The notes under the pieces: generated by a model | What the model saw: the letters and a program-made list of their open reading frames with translations, nothing else | The model's database searches: none | Told to the model about the DNA's origin: nothing | Source: Candidatus Poribacteria bacterium | Lineage (GTDB): Bacteria; Poribacteria; WGA-4E; WGA-3G | Assembly: GCA_022827625.1 (NCBI GenBank) | Contig: JAJEIE010000033.1 | Location: forward strand, 124,001-188,000 | Direction of reading: 5' to 3' | DNA length: 64,000 nucleotides | Translations under genes and position numbers: made by a program | Shown here: piece by piece, positions 57,641 to 64,000 of the stretch | How positions within the stretch are numbered: position 1 is the first letter of the stretch | Layout: each line of letters begins with the position of its first letter

Positions 57641-58396
57641 TCAACCCACTTCCACGACGTAGGGTCGCCTCCCAACAGAAGGTGGTAGCATCATCCGTTT
57701 CTGTTGTTCGGTTAACTCACCGTATTTGCTGAGGTCGTGATACTGTCCCGACCACGCCGAGTGTCCCGGACTGTACTTATAGAGCAGTGAACGGCGTTGA
57801 TGCTTTGCTTTCCACGGCATTGTTCCGTGAACGAGTGCCTCGGTGAAAAACAGCACATCTCCGGCTTCGACAGGCGGTTGCACGACGTAGTGTGTCGGAC
57901 GCTCAAAATTCCGCACATCTGAGGGCAATTCCCGCAAGAAATTGCTTTTATGACTGCCCGGAATACAGGCAAACCCACCCGCACCTGCTGGGGCATCCGC
58001 CAAATTGTACGTCATTACAGATAACCCATTTCGCATGATACCATCGCGGTACTTGTACCAGTGATCCGCTTCAGGACCACCGGGTCCACCACCATCTTCA
58101 CCACCGTGCAATCTTCCGCCTTGTTGCCCTTCATCCATGAAGATGGCGTAGTCGTGGTCTAAACGGACGTGGGGACCCAATAATTCGAGGAGATACGGGA
58201 GAATTTTCGGATGATCAATCAGGCTCTTAAAGGGTTCACCCCACAGACTCGACACTCTATCGCCGTGTCCTCTCAAGTTATCGCTGGATTCTCTATCAAT
58301 AATCTCATTCATCTCAGCGACTTCATCTTCGGTCAAGACGTTCTTTATGACGAGGTAACCCTGAAGGTCTACTTGGAATTTTTCTTCGCCTGTCAT
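57641..58396 (-). CDS. Phytanoyl-CoA dioxygenase-like protein, copy 1
   Basis: 251 aa. Fe(II)/2-oxoglutarate dioxygenase of the PhyH family: DLQGYLVIKNVLTEDEVAEM start, RLDHDYAIFMDEGQQGGRLH, GGFACIPGSHKSNF, AGDVLFFTEALVHGTMPW (distal His) and RSLLYKYSPGHSAW (2-oxoglutarate Arg). The proximal H-x-D of typical PhyH enzymes is not clear; HGGEDGG may supply ligands. Function in this group is unknown. It is a close paralog of the 59024 gene and is followed by the ankyrin gene. Confidence 0.9.
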   Translation of the reverse strand: MTGEEKFQVDLQGYLVIKNVLTEDEVAEMNEIIDRESSDNLRGHGDRVSSLWGEPFKSLIDHPKILPYLLELLGPHVRLDHDYAIFMDEGQQGGRLHGGEDGGGPGGPEADHWYKYRDGIMRNGLSVMTYNLADAPAGAGGFACIPGSHKSNFLRELPSDVRNFERPTHYVVQPPVEAGDVLFFTEALVHGTMPWKAKHQRRSLLYKYSPGHSAWSGQYHDLSKYGELTEQQKRMMLPPSVGRRPYVVEVG

Positions 58397-59023: not shown

Positions 59024-59758
59024 TTAGCCTACCTCAATAACCGGAGGTCTCCGACCGATTGAGGGTGGCATCAGCATCCGTTTTTGTTGTTCCGTTAATC
59101 CATCGTATTTACTGAGGTCGTAGTAATTCCCCGACCATGCGGAGTGTCCGGGACTGTATTTGTAGAGCAGTGAACGGCGTTCGTGCTCCGCTGTCCATGG
59201 CATTGTCCCGTGAATGAGTGCCTCGGTGAAAAACAGCACATCTCCGGCTTCGACAGGGGGTTGGGCGACGTAGTGTGCAGGACGCTCGAACCGACGCACC
59301 TCTTTGGGAATCTGGGTCGGGAAGTTGGATTTATGGCTGCCCGGAATACAGGCGAAGCCACCCGCACCTGCCGGGGCATCCGCCAGATTATACGTCATCA
59401 CAGACAACCCGTTCCGCATGTGTCCGTCGCGGTATTTGTACCAGTGATCCCCGACGTGTCCACCGGCGCGTCCACCGTCCTCACCGCCGTGCAGTCCGCC
59501 ACGCCCTTGCCCCTTTTCCATGAAGATGGCGTAATCGTGATCGAGACGTACATGATGCCCCATCAATTCAATGAGATATGGCAGGATTTTTGGATGATCA
59601 ATCAGCCGCTTGAACGGTTCACCCCAGAGACTCGGTGGTCCCTTGCGGTCTCCACTGTCGATAATCTCGTTCATCTCAGCGACTTCAGCGTCGGTTAAGA
59701 CGTTCTTGATAACGAGGTAGCCCTCAAGGTCTACTTTGAATTTCTCTTCACCTGTCAT
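59024..59758 (-). CDS. Phytanoyl-CoA dioxygenase-like protein, copy 2
   Basis: 244 aa, close paralog of the 57641 protein, with the same blocks DLEGYLVIKNVLTDAEVAEM, LSVMTYNLADAPAGAGGFAC, IPGSHKSNFPTQIP, EALIHGTMPW and RSLLYKYSPGHSAW. Main differences are the shortened region at about 35-45 and the sequence after the HGGEDGG loop. Likely Fe(II)/2-oxoglutarate-dependent oxidation of an unknown substrate. It is the first gene of the operon 59758-56458. Confidence 0.9.
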   Translation of the reverse strand: MTGEEKFKVDLEGYLVIKNVLTDAEVAEMNEIIDSGDRKGPPSLWGEPFKRLIDHPKILPYLIELMGHHVRLDHDYAIFMEKGQGRGGLHGGEDGGRAGGHVGDHWYKYRDGHMRNGLSVMTYNLADAPAGAGGFACIPGSHKSNFPTQIPKEVRRFERPAHYVAQPPVEAGDVLFFTEALIHGTMPWTAEHERRSLLYKYSPGHSAWSGNYYDLSKYDGLTEQQKRMLMPPSIGRRPPVIEVG

Positions 59759-61103: not shown

Positions 61104-61676
61104 ATTTGGGGACTCCTCTCCTTGGTGTGTAAATGATAGCATATTCAACGGAAGGCTGTCAACTGGGAATTCGGGGTGTTTGGTTGTTTGTCTGAATGCA
61201 CGTCGCATTTGGGCGCGTACGCCGCAGATCGCGGATTTGCACGGATTATACGGATGGTGCGGATTTTGGGTGGCTATTGAGGGGTAGTGGTGGATTGGAT
61301 GGGTTTTGAGCGGGACACCATCAGAAAGGCAGCAGTGGGCGGAATGTCTATAGAAAACGGTATATTCAAAAGTTCGCATTTCAGCAAAGTGCTATGTTTG
61401 TAGAATAAGAATCGATAAATGTTCAGTTTTTTCGGTGAAAGCATTTATAGTAGAATGTGAAAAATTTAAGAATTTGCCGACAAGTACGCTGCCGGTGAGG
61501 TTTTTTAACCTCTAAAAAAATGAAAGTAACGCATTGCTGTCCAATTTTTTGAGAGTTATAAATCGTGCTTTTATGAATTTTTCTGTCATTACTATAAAAA
61601 ATGCTGCCCCTACAAGAGGAACAGCAAATTAATTCCTAATAATCGTCCTGGGTTAAGGCGTTCTACCACTAACAAC
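61104..61676. other. Intergenic region with nested repeat
   Basis: About 570 bases without a gene. TGTCTGA is separated from GATCGCGGATTTGCACGG by the 31-bp element (61196-61226). Another hairpin GAGGTTTTTTAACCTC (61497-61512) is seen without the T-run of a standard terminator. Confidence 0.72.
61196..61226. repeat. 31-bp element (family D) inserted in a CGCGGATT repeat
   Basis: ATGCACGTCGCATTTGGGCG to ACGCCGCA splits TGTCTGA / GATCGCGGATT, exactly as at 34544-34574 and in the same orientation. Confidence 0.9.
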
Positions 61677-63089
61677 CTACCAACGCATAGATGCTTTTCT
61701 CTCCTCAACCTGTTGCCAGAATTCATCAACTGTTTCTTCAGACTGTGCCGGTATTAGGAAATCTTTCCATTGGTTTTTAAGTTTTTCGGCAAAATCACTG
61801 TCTTCATATTCTAAACCCAGAATCCACTGCTGGATTATACGACCGTGTCGGACAGCCTTGGTTCGCTCCTCGCTTCGCATATTCCAACGCTTTGTTGAAG
61901 TAGATTTGATTAACAGGAAATGCACCCATGGCGCTTGATGAAGATGCCATTCCAATTGGCTCAGTCCTCTTAGTGCAAATTGGACGGTTTCAAGAGTAGG
62001 ATTTTCCAGATCATGAAGCCGTTCATTGAGCAATTCCCGTGCGATTTCTGCCAGCATCTGTTGTCCGATAGGCCAAAATAGTAAATGATCTGTTTCATCT
62101 TCAGTTTCCCTATTGAGGAGATTGTGGACACGCATCTTAGTTGGTTCATTCCGAAGAACTGGGAGCTCAGTCAGTAGGGCTTCCCAATATATGACTAATT
62201 CATCATAGAGGCTATCAATGTATTCTTCGGATGGTCGGAACTTTTTGAAAGTTGCCAAATCCGTACTTTCTTCTCTGATTGGTCCCCAACCGTTAGAAAT
62301 TCTCTGTAATGAACTTAACAATTCAATGTTCATCTCATACAATGTTTCGATGCTCGTAAAGTATGGATCTCTGACTGTAAGGTTTTTGCCCTTCTTAGTC
62401 TTAATTCGATTCGATTCTCTTTGTTTACCGGCGAACTGAAAAAAAGTGTTTTCAGTAATTAGCCTTCGTGTAATAATTGCAAACGTATCGTCCTCATCCA
62501 TAATGATGTTGGTTGCCTGATCCATTGGTTTGGCATAACGGTTTAAGTTAGAGAAAAGCCTGCGGTACTTTTGCATGAAGGTTTCATTAGAATCTTCTCG
62601 ATTTGGCACGATAACAATGACAGAGAATTCATCCTCTTCAAAATCCTTGGGAGTACCATCTGATGTCGGATCGTTTCGAGCCAGAAGGGTTTTGATCGCC
62701 GATAGACGGTGCTGGCCATCTAAGGCATAGTATTTCTGTGTCCCATCAAACTTTAAGACTCCGAAAGCTTCATTAAGCCTGCGATCATCGTGGAAAAGTT
62801 CAAAACGTGGATCGTCTGTAACCTCGACTGGGTAAAACACCGGATCTCCTTCAAGTGCTGCAACAACTATTGAGGAGAAAAAGCGATGAGGTTGACGTTT
62901 TAAATACTCCACAATATCTTTTTTTACTCTACTCTCATCTAGAATCCGCTGAATTGCTTCGTCAAGGGTTCGATCTTCATGGACTTGGGAAGCATACATT
63001 ACATTCTGACTTAGTTCACGAGCACTCATTTTGACTACATAATAATTCCATGTGCCCATGCGCGAACATAAAGCTGGGTAAATATTCAT
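61677..63089 (-). CDS. DGQHR-domain (DndB-like) protein
   Basis: 470 aa. The DGQHR motif is at D124-G-Q-H-R128, in KYYALDGQHRLSAIKTLL, followed by FSVIVIVPNRED and ETFMQKYRRLFSNLNRYAKP. In DndB and relatives this fold is ParB/Srx-like and the family is tied to DNA phosphorothioate modification or other modification systems, with DndB as regulator. It lies in an apparent operon with a GIY-YIG nuclease and an HNH protein. The long C-terminal half (200-470) is helical and not assigned. No DndA/C/D/E genes are visible here; they may lie beyond the edge, or this may be a different system. Confidence 0.85.
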   Translation of the reverse strand: MNIYPALCSRMGTWNYYVVKMSARELSQNVMYASQVHEDRTLDEAIQRILDESRVKKDIVEYLKRQPHRFFSSIVVAALEGDPVFYPVEVTDDPRFELFHDDRRLNEAFGVLKFDGTQKYYALDGQHRLSAIKTLLARNDPTSDGTPKDFEEDEFSVIVIVPNREDSNETFMQKYRRLFSNLNRYAKPMDQATNIIMDEDDTFAIITRRLITENTFFQFAGKQRESNRIKTKKGKNLTVRDPYFTSIETLYEMNIELLSSLQRISNGWGPIREESTDLATFKKFRPSEEYIDSLYDELVIYWEALLTELPVLRNEPTKMRVHNLLNRETEDETDHLLFWPIGQQMLAEIARELLNERLHDLENPTLETVQFALRGLSQLEWHLHQAPWVHFLLIKSTSTKRWNMRSEERTKAVRHGRIIQQWILGLEYEDSDFAEKLKNQWKDFLIPAQSEETVDEFWQQVEERKASMRW

Positions 63090-63125
63090 AAGCGTTATCC
63101 TTCATTAGATCTAATAGTTTTACTA

Positions 63126-63563
63126 TCAAGCATGTCGTGGACTTCCTACTTTCGCCGGGATATGTCCACGTATACGGTTTGCTGGTGGCCCGAAACAGTC
63201 GATGAGACGTGCTTCAAGTTCCGCAATTCGCTCCGGATTTACTTCGGCAAACCAATATTCAAGGTTATCGCCGAAGCACTGTTTTGCCATTACAATTTCT
63301 TGTTTTGGGTTATTGCAGTGATAAAGGAATCGGTCATAAAGGGTTCCTCTGTCTGCCTTTCCAACATAAATAACATTATATAGCGATTTAAACAACCGCT
63401 GATTGAAACGGGGTATTTTGACGCAGATAACGTATACCCCCGGTCTTCTGGGGACGCTGTCCCTATAAAGTTGTCCTAACTTCGTTTTTGACCAGCGCGT
63501 TCCTTCTACTACTTGTGGTAAGAGATCCCATTCTTGCTTTTTAAGGGTCCAACCGTGTTGCAT
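63126..63563 (-). CDS. GIY-YIG-like endonuclease
   Basis: 145 aa from ATG 63563, with AGGA 7 bases upstream; TTG 63581 is an alternative. A GIY-YIG-like fold is suggested by PGVYVICVK (the GIY strand), YNVIYVGKADRGTLYDRFLYH (YIG strand, then conserved Arg) and an acidic E in ELEARLIDCFG. These enzymes cut DNA with a single metal ion. The gene is between the HNH gene and the DGQHR gene, all on the minus strand with short gaps. Confidence 0.75.
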   Translation of the reverse strand: MQHGWTLKKQEWDLLPQVVEGTRWSKTKLGQLYRDSVPRRPGVYVICVKIPRFNQRLFKSLYNVIYVGKADRGTLYDRFLYHCNNPKQEIVMAKQCFGDNLEYWFAEVNPERIAELEARLIDCFGPPANRIRGHIPAKVGSPRHA

Positions 63564-63598
63564 AAATATATCCTGATTCAATTAACTGTGTCACTATA

Positions 63599-64000
63599 TC
63601 AACTTGCTCCTTTATGCACGTTGCATTGTTGACAAAGTGCTTGGCCATTATCAATAGTTGTTTCTCCACCTTGACTGTGTGGAATGATGTGGTCAGCGTG
63701 CATTTGATCAATATTAATTTCTTTATTGCAATTACTATTCTGACACCGTCCACCGCTGCGGTACCAAATGATATATCGTTCATCATCAGTGAATGCGCGT
63801 CGCGAATCCTTAGGTATCAGATTTTGAGTATCTCTAAGAAATTGCTTTTTGTACACTTCATGCCGCTTTTGAATACTTTCCTCTGCCCCTCCTTGATTTT
63901 TAAACGCTTGAATATAATCGTACAAATCCGTCTTCCAGAGATTTTCACCAGAAGAAAGCAAATCTCTTGGATCAGATACCTCCCTTCTTTCTCTTTCAAA
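63599..64000 (-). CDS. C-terminal part of HNH nuclease-domain protein, cut by window edge
   Basis: About 133 residues visible; the frame is open through the right edge, so the N-terminus is outside. The C-terminal HNH nuclease: CQNSNCNKEINIDQMHADHI with IPHSQGGETTIDNGQALC, i.e. C-x4-C, H-A-D-H-I-I-P, N in NGQALC, and C-x2-C, the standard HNH treble-clef with zinc cysteines. The visible N-terminal part (FERERREVSDPRDLLSSGEN) suggests the end of a longer domain, possibly DUF262-like as in GmrSD/SspE-type proteins; this is inference. An internal TTG at 63961 exists but is unlikely to be the true start. Confidence 0.8.
   Translation of the reverse strand, partial: FERERREVSDPRDLLSSGENLWKTDLYDYIQAFKNQGGAEESIQKRHEVYKKQFLRDTQNLIPKDSRRAFTDDERYIIWYRSGGRCQNSNCNKEINIDQMHADHIIPHSQGGETTIDNGQALCQQCNVHKGAS

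Follow-up and report, generated by a model that had tools for sequence, protein, structure and literature searches.

The right edge of a 64,000-nucleotide stretch of a Candidatus Poribacteria genome (hereafter the window) carries genes for a DGQHR protein, a GIY-YIG-like nuclease and an HNH protein, which raises the question of what kind of DNA modification or defence operon they belong to and which of them form a conserved unit. The first-pass annotation described three minus-strand genes, with the HNH gene cut by the edge, and the open reading frames are present as claimed; its figure of about 35 bases for the gaps holds for the 36 bases between the DGQHR and GIY-YIG genes, but not for the 17 bases between GIY-YIG and HNH. 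Extension of the contig to the right, as proposed there, revealed sspD, sspC and sspB and the DUF262 domain of the HNH gene (Table 1). The order of transcription in this host genome (assembly of 5.0 Mb) is SBD-HNH, sspB, sspC, sspD, DUF262-HNH, GIY-YIG, DGQHR, and sspC overlaps sspB by 8 bases. An in-frame ATG six codons inside the TTG start of the GIY-YIG gene agrees with the start of several orthologs. The hairpin downstream of the DGQHR gene is a possible operon end; it is a match to the consensus only, and such sites as a class lie near the shuffled background. Beyond the island, on its other flank, lie two near-duplicate genes (57641-58396 and 59024-59758) with the common start MTGEEKF...GYLVIKNVLT, which we take to be PhyH-like.

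Table 1. Genes and signals of the operon. Plain numbers are window positions; the window is C25:124001-188000 and L003 is C25:184001-204000 of the same contig, and a window position equals the L003 position plus 60000.
Feature	Position	Strand	Description
Terminator-like hairpin and T run	61602..61626 (L003:1626-1602)	-	51-75 bases after the DGQHR stop
DGQHR/DndB-family gene	61677..63089	-	470 aa; DGQHR motif at residues 124-128; TIGR03187 and PF14072
GIY-YIG nuclease gene (predicted)	63126..63581	-	151 aa from TTG; ~145 aa from ATG at 63563
DUF262(GmrSD_N)-HNH gene, C-terminal part	63599..64000	-	runs past the window edge
DUF262-HNH, whole gene	L003:3599-4849	-	416 aa
sspD	L003:4898-5743, outside the window	-	281 aa; PAPS-reductase family sulfurtransferase
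sspC	L003:5950-9534, outside the window	-	1194 aa; ATPase
sspB (DUF4007)	L003:9527-10600, outside the window	-	357 aa
SBD-HNH gene	L003:10946-11839, just outside the window	-	297 aa; sulfur-binding domain and HNH_2

The modification core is recognized with high scores: SspB matches PF13182 at 301.6 bits (cut-off 27) and the PADLOC SspB model at 329 bits, SspC its PADLOC model at 1104 bits, and SspD its own at 381.6 bits over the full length, in the gene order B-C-D found in Ssp systems. Because these genes lie directly upstream on the same strand, the operon is assigned by sequence to the DNA phosphorothioation (PT) systems of the Ssp branch. The expectation of a DNA modification or defence operon is thus borne out in the form of a PT-type operon with sspBCD adjoining. 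The remark that DndC/D/E are not visible was correct as far as dndCDE is concerned, but modification enzymes do exist, just past the edge; the neighbors are not housekeeping genes, and the association recurs in other genomes. A Dnd system in the host was rejected, since the genome contains no match to the DndC family. No SspA/IscS cysteine desulfurase gene was seen within the operon, and the window and operon proteins gave no PADLOC match to SspF, SspG or SspH, models that PADLOC may not contain.

The GIY-YIG protein scores only at the border of the GIY_YIG_2 profile (22.8 bits against a cut-off of 22.4), and several members of its family, L061 and L132 among them, have no Pfam match at all, so that they would stay hidden from domain-based surveys. 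In 38 diverse sequences G48, Y50, Y72, G74 and R84 are invariant, and E123 is present in at least 90%. The AlphaFold2 model (pLDDT 87.5) superposes on the GIY-YIG domain of UvrC with a Z of 10.5 (2.2 Å over 85 residues), and on R.Eco29kI and the 5hmC-specific PD-T4-3 with Z values of 7.9 and 6.9. Motif and predicted fold agree with the earlier label of GIY-YIG-like, and with its active-site residues intact the protein is placed in the GIY-YIG superfamily as a predicted nuclease.

The DGQHR protein belongs to the DndB superfamily by profile, as had been suggested, with 101.5 bits to TIGR03187 (cut-off 58.85) and 111.4 bits to PF14072 DndB (cut-off 29.1). However, it reaches 49.6 bits against a cut-off of 328 for the DndB equivalog (TIGR03233) and 27.6 against 450 for DGQHR_dnd_1 (TIGR04172); being so far below the equivalog cut-off, it does not earn the accompanying label of regulator. 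The motif D124-R128 is invariant in 42 sequences, and W14, Y16 and Y17 are invariant or nearly so. A PDB sequence search with the profile gave no meaningful match. The AlphaFold2 model (pLDDT 88) consists of a ParB/sulfiredoxin-like N-domain and a helical C-terminal half, and the N-domain resembles Noc/ParB (Z 7.8), sulfiredoxin (5.6), SspE (5.1) and the GmrSD enzyme BrxU (4.5). The SspE match is weak (rmsd 3.9) and is a likeness of fold, not of function. Because all of the listed matches agree, although with modest Z values, the predicted N-domain is assigned to the ParB/Srx superfamily, to which the sensor domain of SspE also belongs. The DGQHR profile also aligns with that of DUF262-HNH around DGQHR/DGQQR (E 1e-5).

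In the HNH gene, both the HNH domain (PF01844, 51.3 bits; cut-off 21.4) and the anticipated DUF262 domain (N-terminal GmrSD_N/DUF262, 72.6 bits) match. Profile search found no GmrSD_C, and PF01844/HNH_5 takes the place of the SspE-type DUF1524/GmrSD_C HNH; the best PADLOC match is NsnA. The sequence carries PQYQR and DGQQR motifs, which are SspE-type N-terminal features. PxYQR is common in DUF262 proteins, and PQYQR is therefore weak evidence for PT sensing by this protein. At the other end of the operon, SBD-HNH scores 338 bits against NF045808 (cut-off 180), an NCBI model for PT-DNA restriction endonucleases; its residues 5-142 align to the solved sulfur-binding domain 7cc9, and HNH_2 (PF13391) is also present. 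The occurrence of a member of a PT-DNA-cleaving family beside the PT modification genes of the same genome poses an apparent paradox of self-restriction, unless the sequence contexts differ.

Which of these genes belong together becomes apparent from relatives. Four close ones (G065, G075, G062, G069) have SspBCD-GIY-DGQHR without DUF262-HNH, two of them with tandem DGQHR genes, and two others (G048, G079) have SspBCD-DUF262HNH-DGQHR with GIY absent. A fixed three-gene trio is rejected on these grounds. Since relatives lack DUF262-HNH or have it in place of GIY, the conserved unit is GIY-YIG plus DGQHR, and DUF262-HNH is optional. From the proposal of a nuclease pair with a DGQHR protein, there remains a little-described pair of one nuclease and DGQHR; across genomes the adjacency of GIY and DGQHR is kept and the trio is not. 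DGQHR adjoins GIY in all 20 GIY-anchored matches in the phylum. When a collection of 84,980 species, each represented by a single genome, was scanned with DGQHR as anchor, 80 loci were obtained. GIY is adjacent in 67 of them; 53 have SspBCD (at least two genes) in the neighborhood and 7 have DndCDE, and of the 20 with neither SspBCD nor DndCDE many end at contig ends. These loci are distributed among many phyla, including proteobacteria, Acidobacteria, Chloroflexi, Bacteroidota, Planctomycetes, Actinobacteria and a Thaumarchaeote, and the gap between GIY and DGQHR is mostly -4 to +30 bases. Because orthologs keep both the catalytic motifs and the adjacency, the finding is not one of chance. 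No GIY::DGQHR fusion was found, an apparent long GIY protein being masked sequence. A tblastn search of plasmids, with the GIY protein of the window as query, gave no match, and four plasmid sspBCD loci that were examined have other genes downstream.

For a sample free of choice on DGQHR, DUF4007 (SspB) served as anchor in five phyla, whose names come from the records of the centre genomes. DUF4007 was carried by 11/398 genomes of Pseudomonadota, 22/345 of Bacteroidota, 33/292 of Cyanobacteriota and 14/297 of Acidobacteriota, about 3-11%, against 45/81 in the window's phylum. After three centre genomes chosen through DGQHR had been left out, 80 usable SspBCD loci remained. Thirteen of them contain the GIY-DGQHR pair (10/30 poribacterial, 3/50 others). 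A second pair, in which a 220 aa GIY-YIG-like protein accompanies a DGQHR protein of roughly 780 aa, occurs in 8; DUF262 proteins are encoded in 16 and DGQHR without GIY in 9, and 42 have neither DGQHR nor DUF262. These counts imply that GIY-DGQHR is one of several partners of SspBCD, common in Poribacteria. The second pair (L061:3972-6960 and seven further loci, e.g., L164, L167, L173, L205, L212) involves a family designated GIY-B, of ~220 aa, with no Pfam match and the motif G[IL]Y..YIG..R..E, which lies beside the ~780 aa DGQHR in Ssp loci including those of cyanobacteria. Two other kinds of neighbor were encountered. A GHKL (HATPase_c_3) ATPase of ~820 aa occurs at L057:7721-10183 and near SspBCD in 14/80 sampled loci, and SspBCD neighbors of similar size are labelled 'sensor histidine kinase' in plasmid records. 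In L196-L198, L204 and L208 (e.g., L196:12660), the genes downstream of SspD include ones for ~700 aa proteins with a match to an ABC-ATPase profile derived from DndD, possibly another effector type.

Among 43 loci with GIY, DGQHR and SspD, the GIY and DGQHR distances correlate with r=0.78 (0/1000 permutations), and the partial r is 0.77 when SspD is taken into account, while the correlations with SspD distances are 0.22 for GIY and 0.24 for DGQHR. Inside each subfamily the partial correlation of GIY and DGQHR is 0.51-0.77 (0/1000 permutations). Judged from these sequence distances, the two genes act as one cassette that has switched its modification partner.

Exchange is also seen at a fixed poribacterial chromosomal site, where different genes follow a constant SspBCD. 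The cargo is GIY and DGQHR, DUF262-HNH and DGQHR, all three, DUF262-DUF1524, GIY-B with long DGQHR and the GHKL ATPase, the GHKL ATPase, the ABC-ATPase, or others. The flanks are what we take to be, on one side, MutY and FGE-sulfatase-like genes and, on the other, genes for HEAT-repeat (AlkHEAT), PhyH-like and ankyrin proteins. Variable Ssp islands occupy this site in L003, L054-L057, L190, L193, L196-L198, L201, L205, L209, L216, L218, L263 and L264. The closed genome G081 (L263) has lost sspB but still contains sspC and sspD, and all that is left in G078 (L264) are fragments of sspD and an SBD-HNH gene. The idea that the pair persists in genomes without PT genes is weakened by these two, given the SspC and SspD of the one and the sspD fragments of the other. 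Only the draft genomes G052 and G047, both incomplete assemblies, still have an intact GIY-DGQHR pair and no match to SspB, SspD or DndC, which would fit a nuclease that PT licenses, or one that targets PT, better than a cutter of all unmarked DNA. The host genome itself contains a second GIY-YIG and DGQHR pair (L005:7050-10850; G000:C8:113050-116850), followed by two tandem HNH_2 genes that are relatives of the SBD-HNH family at 129 and 142 bits, below the cut-off of 180. Neither SspBCD nor DndCDE was found near this C8 pair; in the relatives L071, L072 and L073, DndCDE lies beside the pair at apparently the same site.

On balance, the locus is probably an Ssp-type PT defence operon in which GIY-YIG and DGQHR form a split, PT-dependent restriction module of the SspE/DndI kind. 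In both SspE and DndI an HNH nickase is coupled to a ParB-like NTPase domain of the DGQQR type; this domain recognizes PT with a Tyr pocket, and PT licenses SspE and restrains DndI (PMC13251355, PMC11662687). By analogy with this coupling of a DGQQR domain to a nuclease, sensor and nuclease could here be divided between two proteins, a reading favored because the two genes are linked, co-vary, lie beside PT genes and are swapped at one site. SspBCD, with a cysteine desulfurase SspA/IscS, would place sulfur marks on host DNA; the DGQHR protein would act as an NTPase-type sensor of ParB/sulfiredoxin fold, detecting the PT state of DNA and licensing or restraining the GIY-YIG nuclease; and host DNA, being marked, would be spared, whereas incoming DNA would receive nicks or cuts. 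The DUF262-HNH fusion, with its SspE-like plan, may be a second effector in the same operon. It is our inference that the GIY and DGQHR proteins form a complex, hydrolyze NTP, sense PT, cleave DNA and act against phages. The low share of sampled Ssp loci with the pair, the occurrence of DGQHR without GIY, the lack of a fusion, the weakness of the structural match to SspE and the genomes G052 and G047 count against this reading.

A DndB-type role is the strongest competitor: DGQHR would repress the modification operon under modulation by ATP, and GIY-YIG, on its own, would be a downstream or suicide nuclease acting when the system fails. DndB has been reported as a regulator of PT modification in Salmonella (PMC4507180), and a comparative study proposes that URI/GIY-YIG genes at dnd boundaries encode suicide effectors that serve as a backup (PMC10853773). 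DGQHR is also kept where DUF262-HNH replaces GIY (L056, L057); found beside DUF262-HNH or alone, it is not the partner of GIY only and may be a regulator. However, DGQHR co-varies with GIY and not with SspD, GIY was never found without DGQHR in the phylum (20/20) and the DndB equivalog score is far too low, which leaves this role rather unlikely. It is improbable that the pair attacks PT-modified foreign DNA in a type IV-like manner, together with the SBD-HNH enzymes often beside it and with the host exempt by sequence context. The pair does have genes of the SBD-HNH family beside it, both in the C8 island and in the operon of the window, and some pairs are in genomes where no PT modification gene was found, but most adjoin SspBCD or DndCDE, and an attack on PT-DNA endangers the host unless contexts differ. 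Very improbable is an aid to modification instead of restriction (e.g., a nick for sulfur insertion, or target choice), as the pair, though situated inside the modification operon, is absent from 67/80 SspBCD loci, is also found beside DndCDE and is replaced by nuclease cassettes at the same site.

A broader reading is possible, which we put forward tentatively: GIY-YIG and DGQHR may be a self-contained split PT sensor-nuclease cassette that serves both single-stranded (Ssp) and double-stranded (Dnd) systems and fills part of the sspBCD loci without a restriction partner, GIY-B and long DGQHR repeating the design. A survey in 2021 counted 2,211/2,678 sspBCD loci without sspE or sspFGH, a share given as 84%, and considered that further restriction partners might exist (PMC8092258); GIY-DGQHR is a candidate for part of these. 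The cassette is short, two conserved genes with the residues of the nuclease active site intact; several phyla have it, and DUF262 nucleases take its place at one fixed site. A search of an open-access library of papers found none on a GIY-YIG with SspBCD or on a fixed GIY-DGQHR pair.

Comparison with known systems places the pair among PT-linked genes of several kinds. URI/GIY-YIG nucleases at dnd boundaries likewise link GIY-YIG to PT genes (Rakesh, Aravind, Krishnan 2024). The passages on them present them as likely standalone backup effectors at the boundary and describe no DGQHR pairing or SspBCD association; Ssp is covered there in short, SspE being taken as the equivalent of DndB (PMC10853773). 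DndB (TIGR03233) and DGQHR_dnd_1 (TIGR04172) have the PF14072/TIGR03187 family and the DGQHR motif in common with the window protein, which in contrast is far below their cut-offs, is linked to a GIY-YIG gene and belongs to a family found mostly with ssp and not dnd. SspFGH is a multi-gene restriction module with SspBCD, as proposed here for GIY-DGQHR, but SspF is reported to carry a Walker A motif and SspH to be similar to FtsK-like translocases (PMC8092258), and GIY-YIG and DGQHR are of neither type by profile. IscS-DndBCDE-DndI has a single effector with a ParB-like DGQQR domain and a nuclease beside the PT module (PMC11662687), and GIY-DGQHR lies beside DndCDE in 7 loci; DndI, however, is one DUF262-DUF1524 HNH protein acting with double-stranded PT, whereas GIY-YIG has a separate DGQHR partner and occurs mainly with Ssp. 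Likewise, SspE combines sensor and nuclease in one protein with a PT-reading Tyr pocket, whereas here the genes are separate, the nuclease is of the GIY-YIG type and DGQHR is likened to the sensor by predicted fold and motif. SspE is also larger (roughly 770-820 aa, with a DUF1524/GmrSD_C HNH) than the window's DUF262-HNH (416 aa, with a PF01844 HNH). On the other hand, SspABCD-SspE has the same sspB-sspC-sspD core as the window's operon, and the order of DUF262 (DGQQR, PxYQ) and then HNH in SspE matches that of its DUF262-HNH protein.
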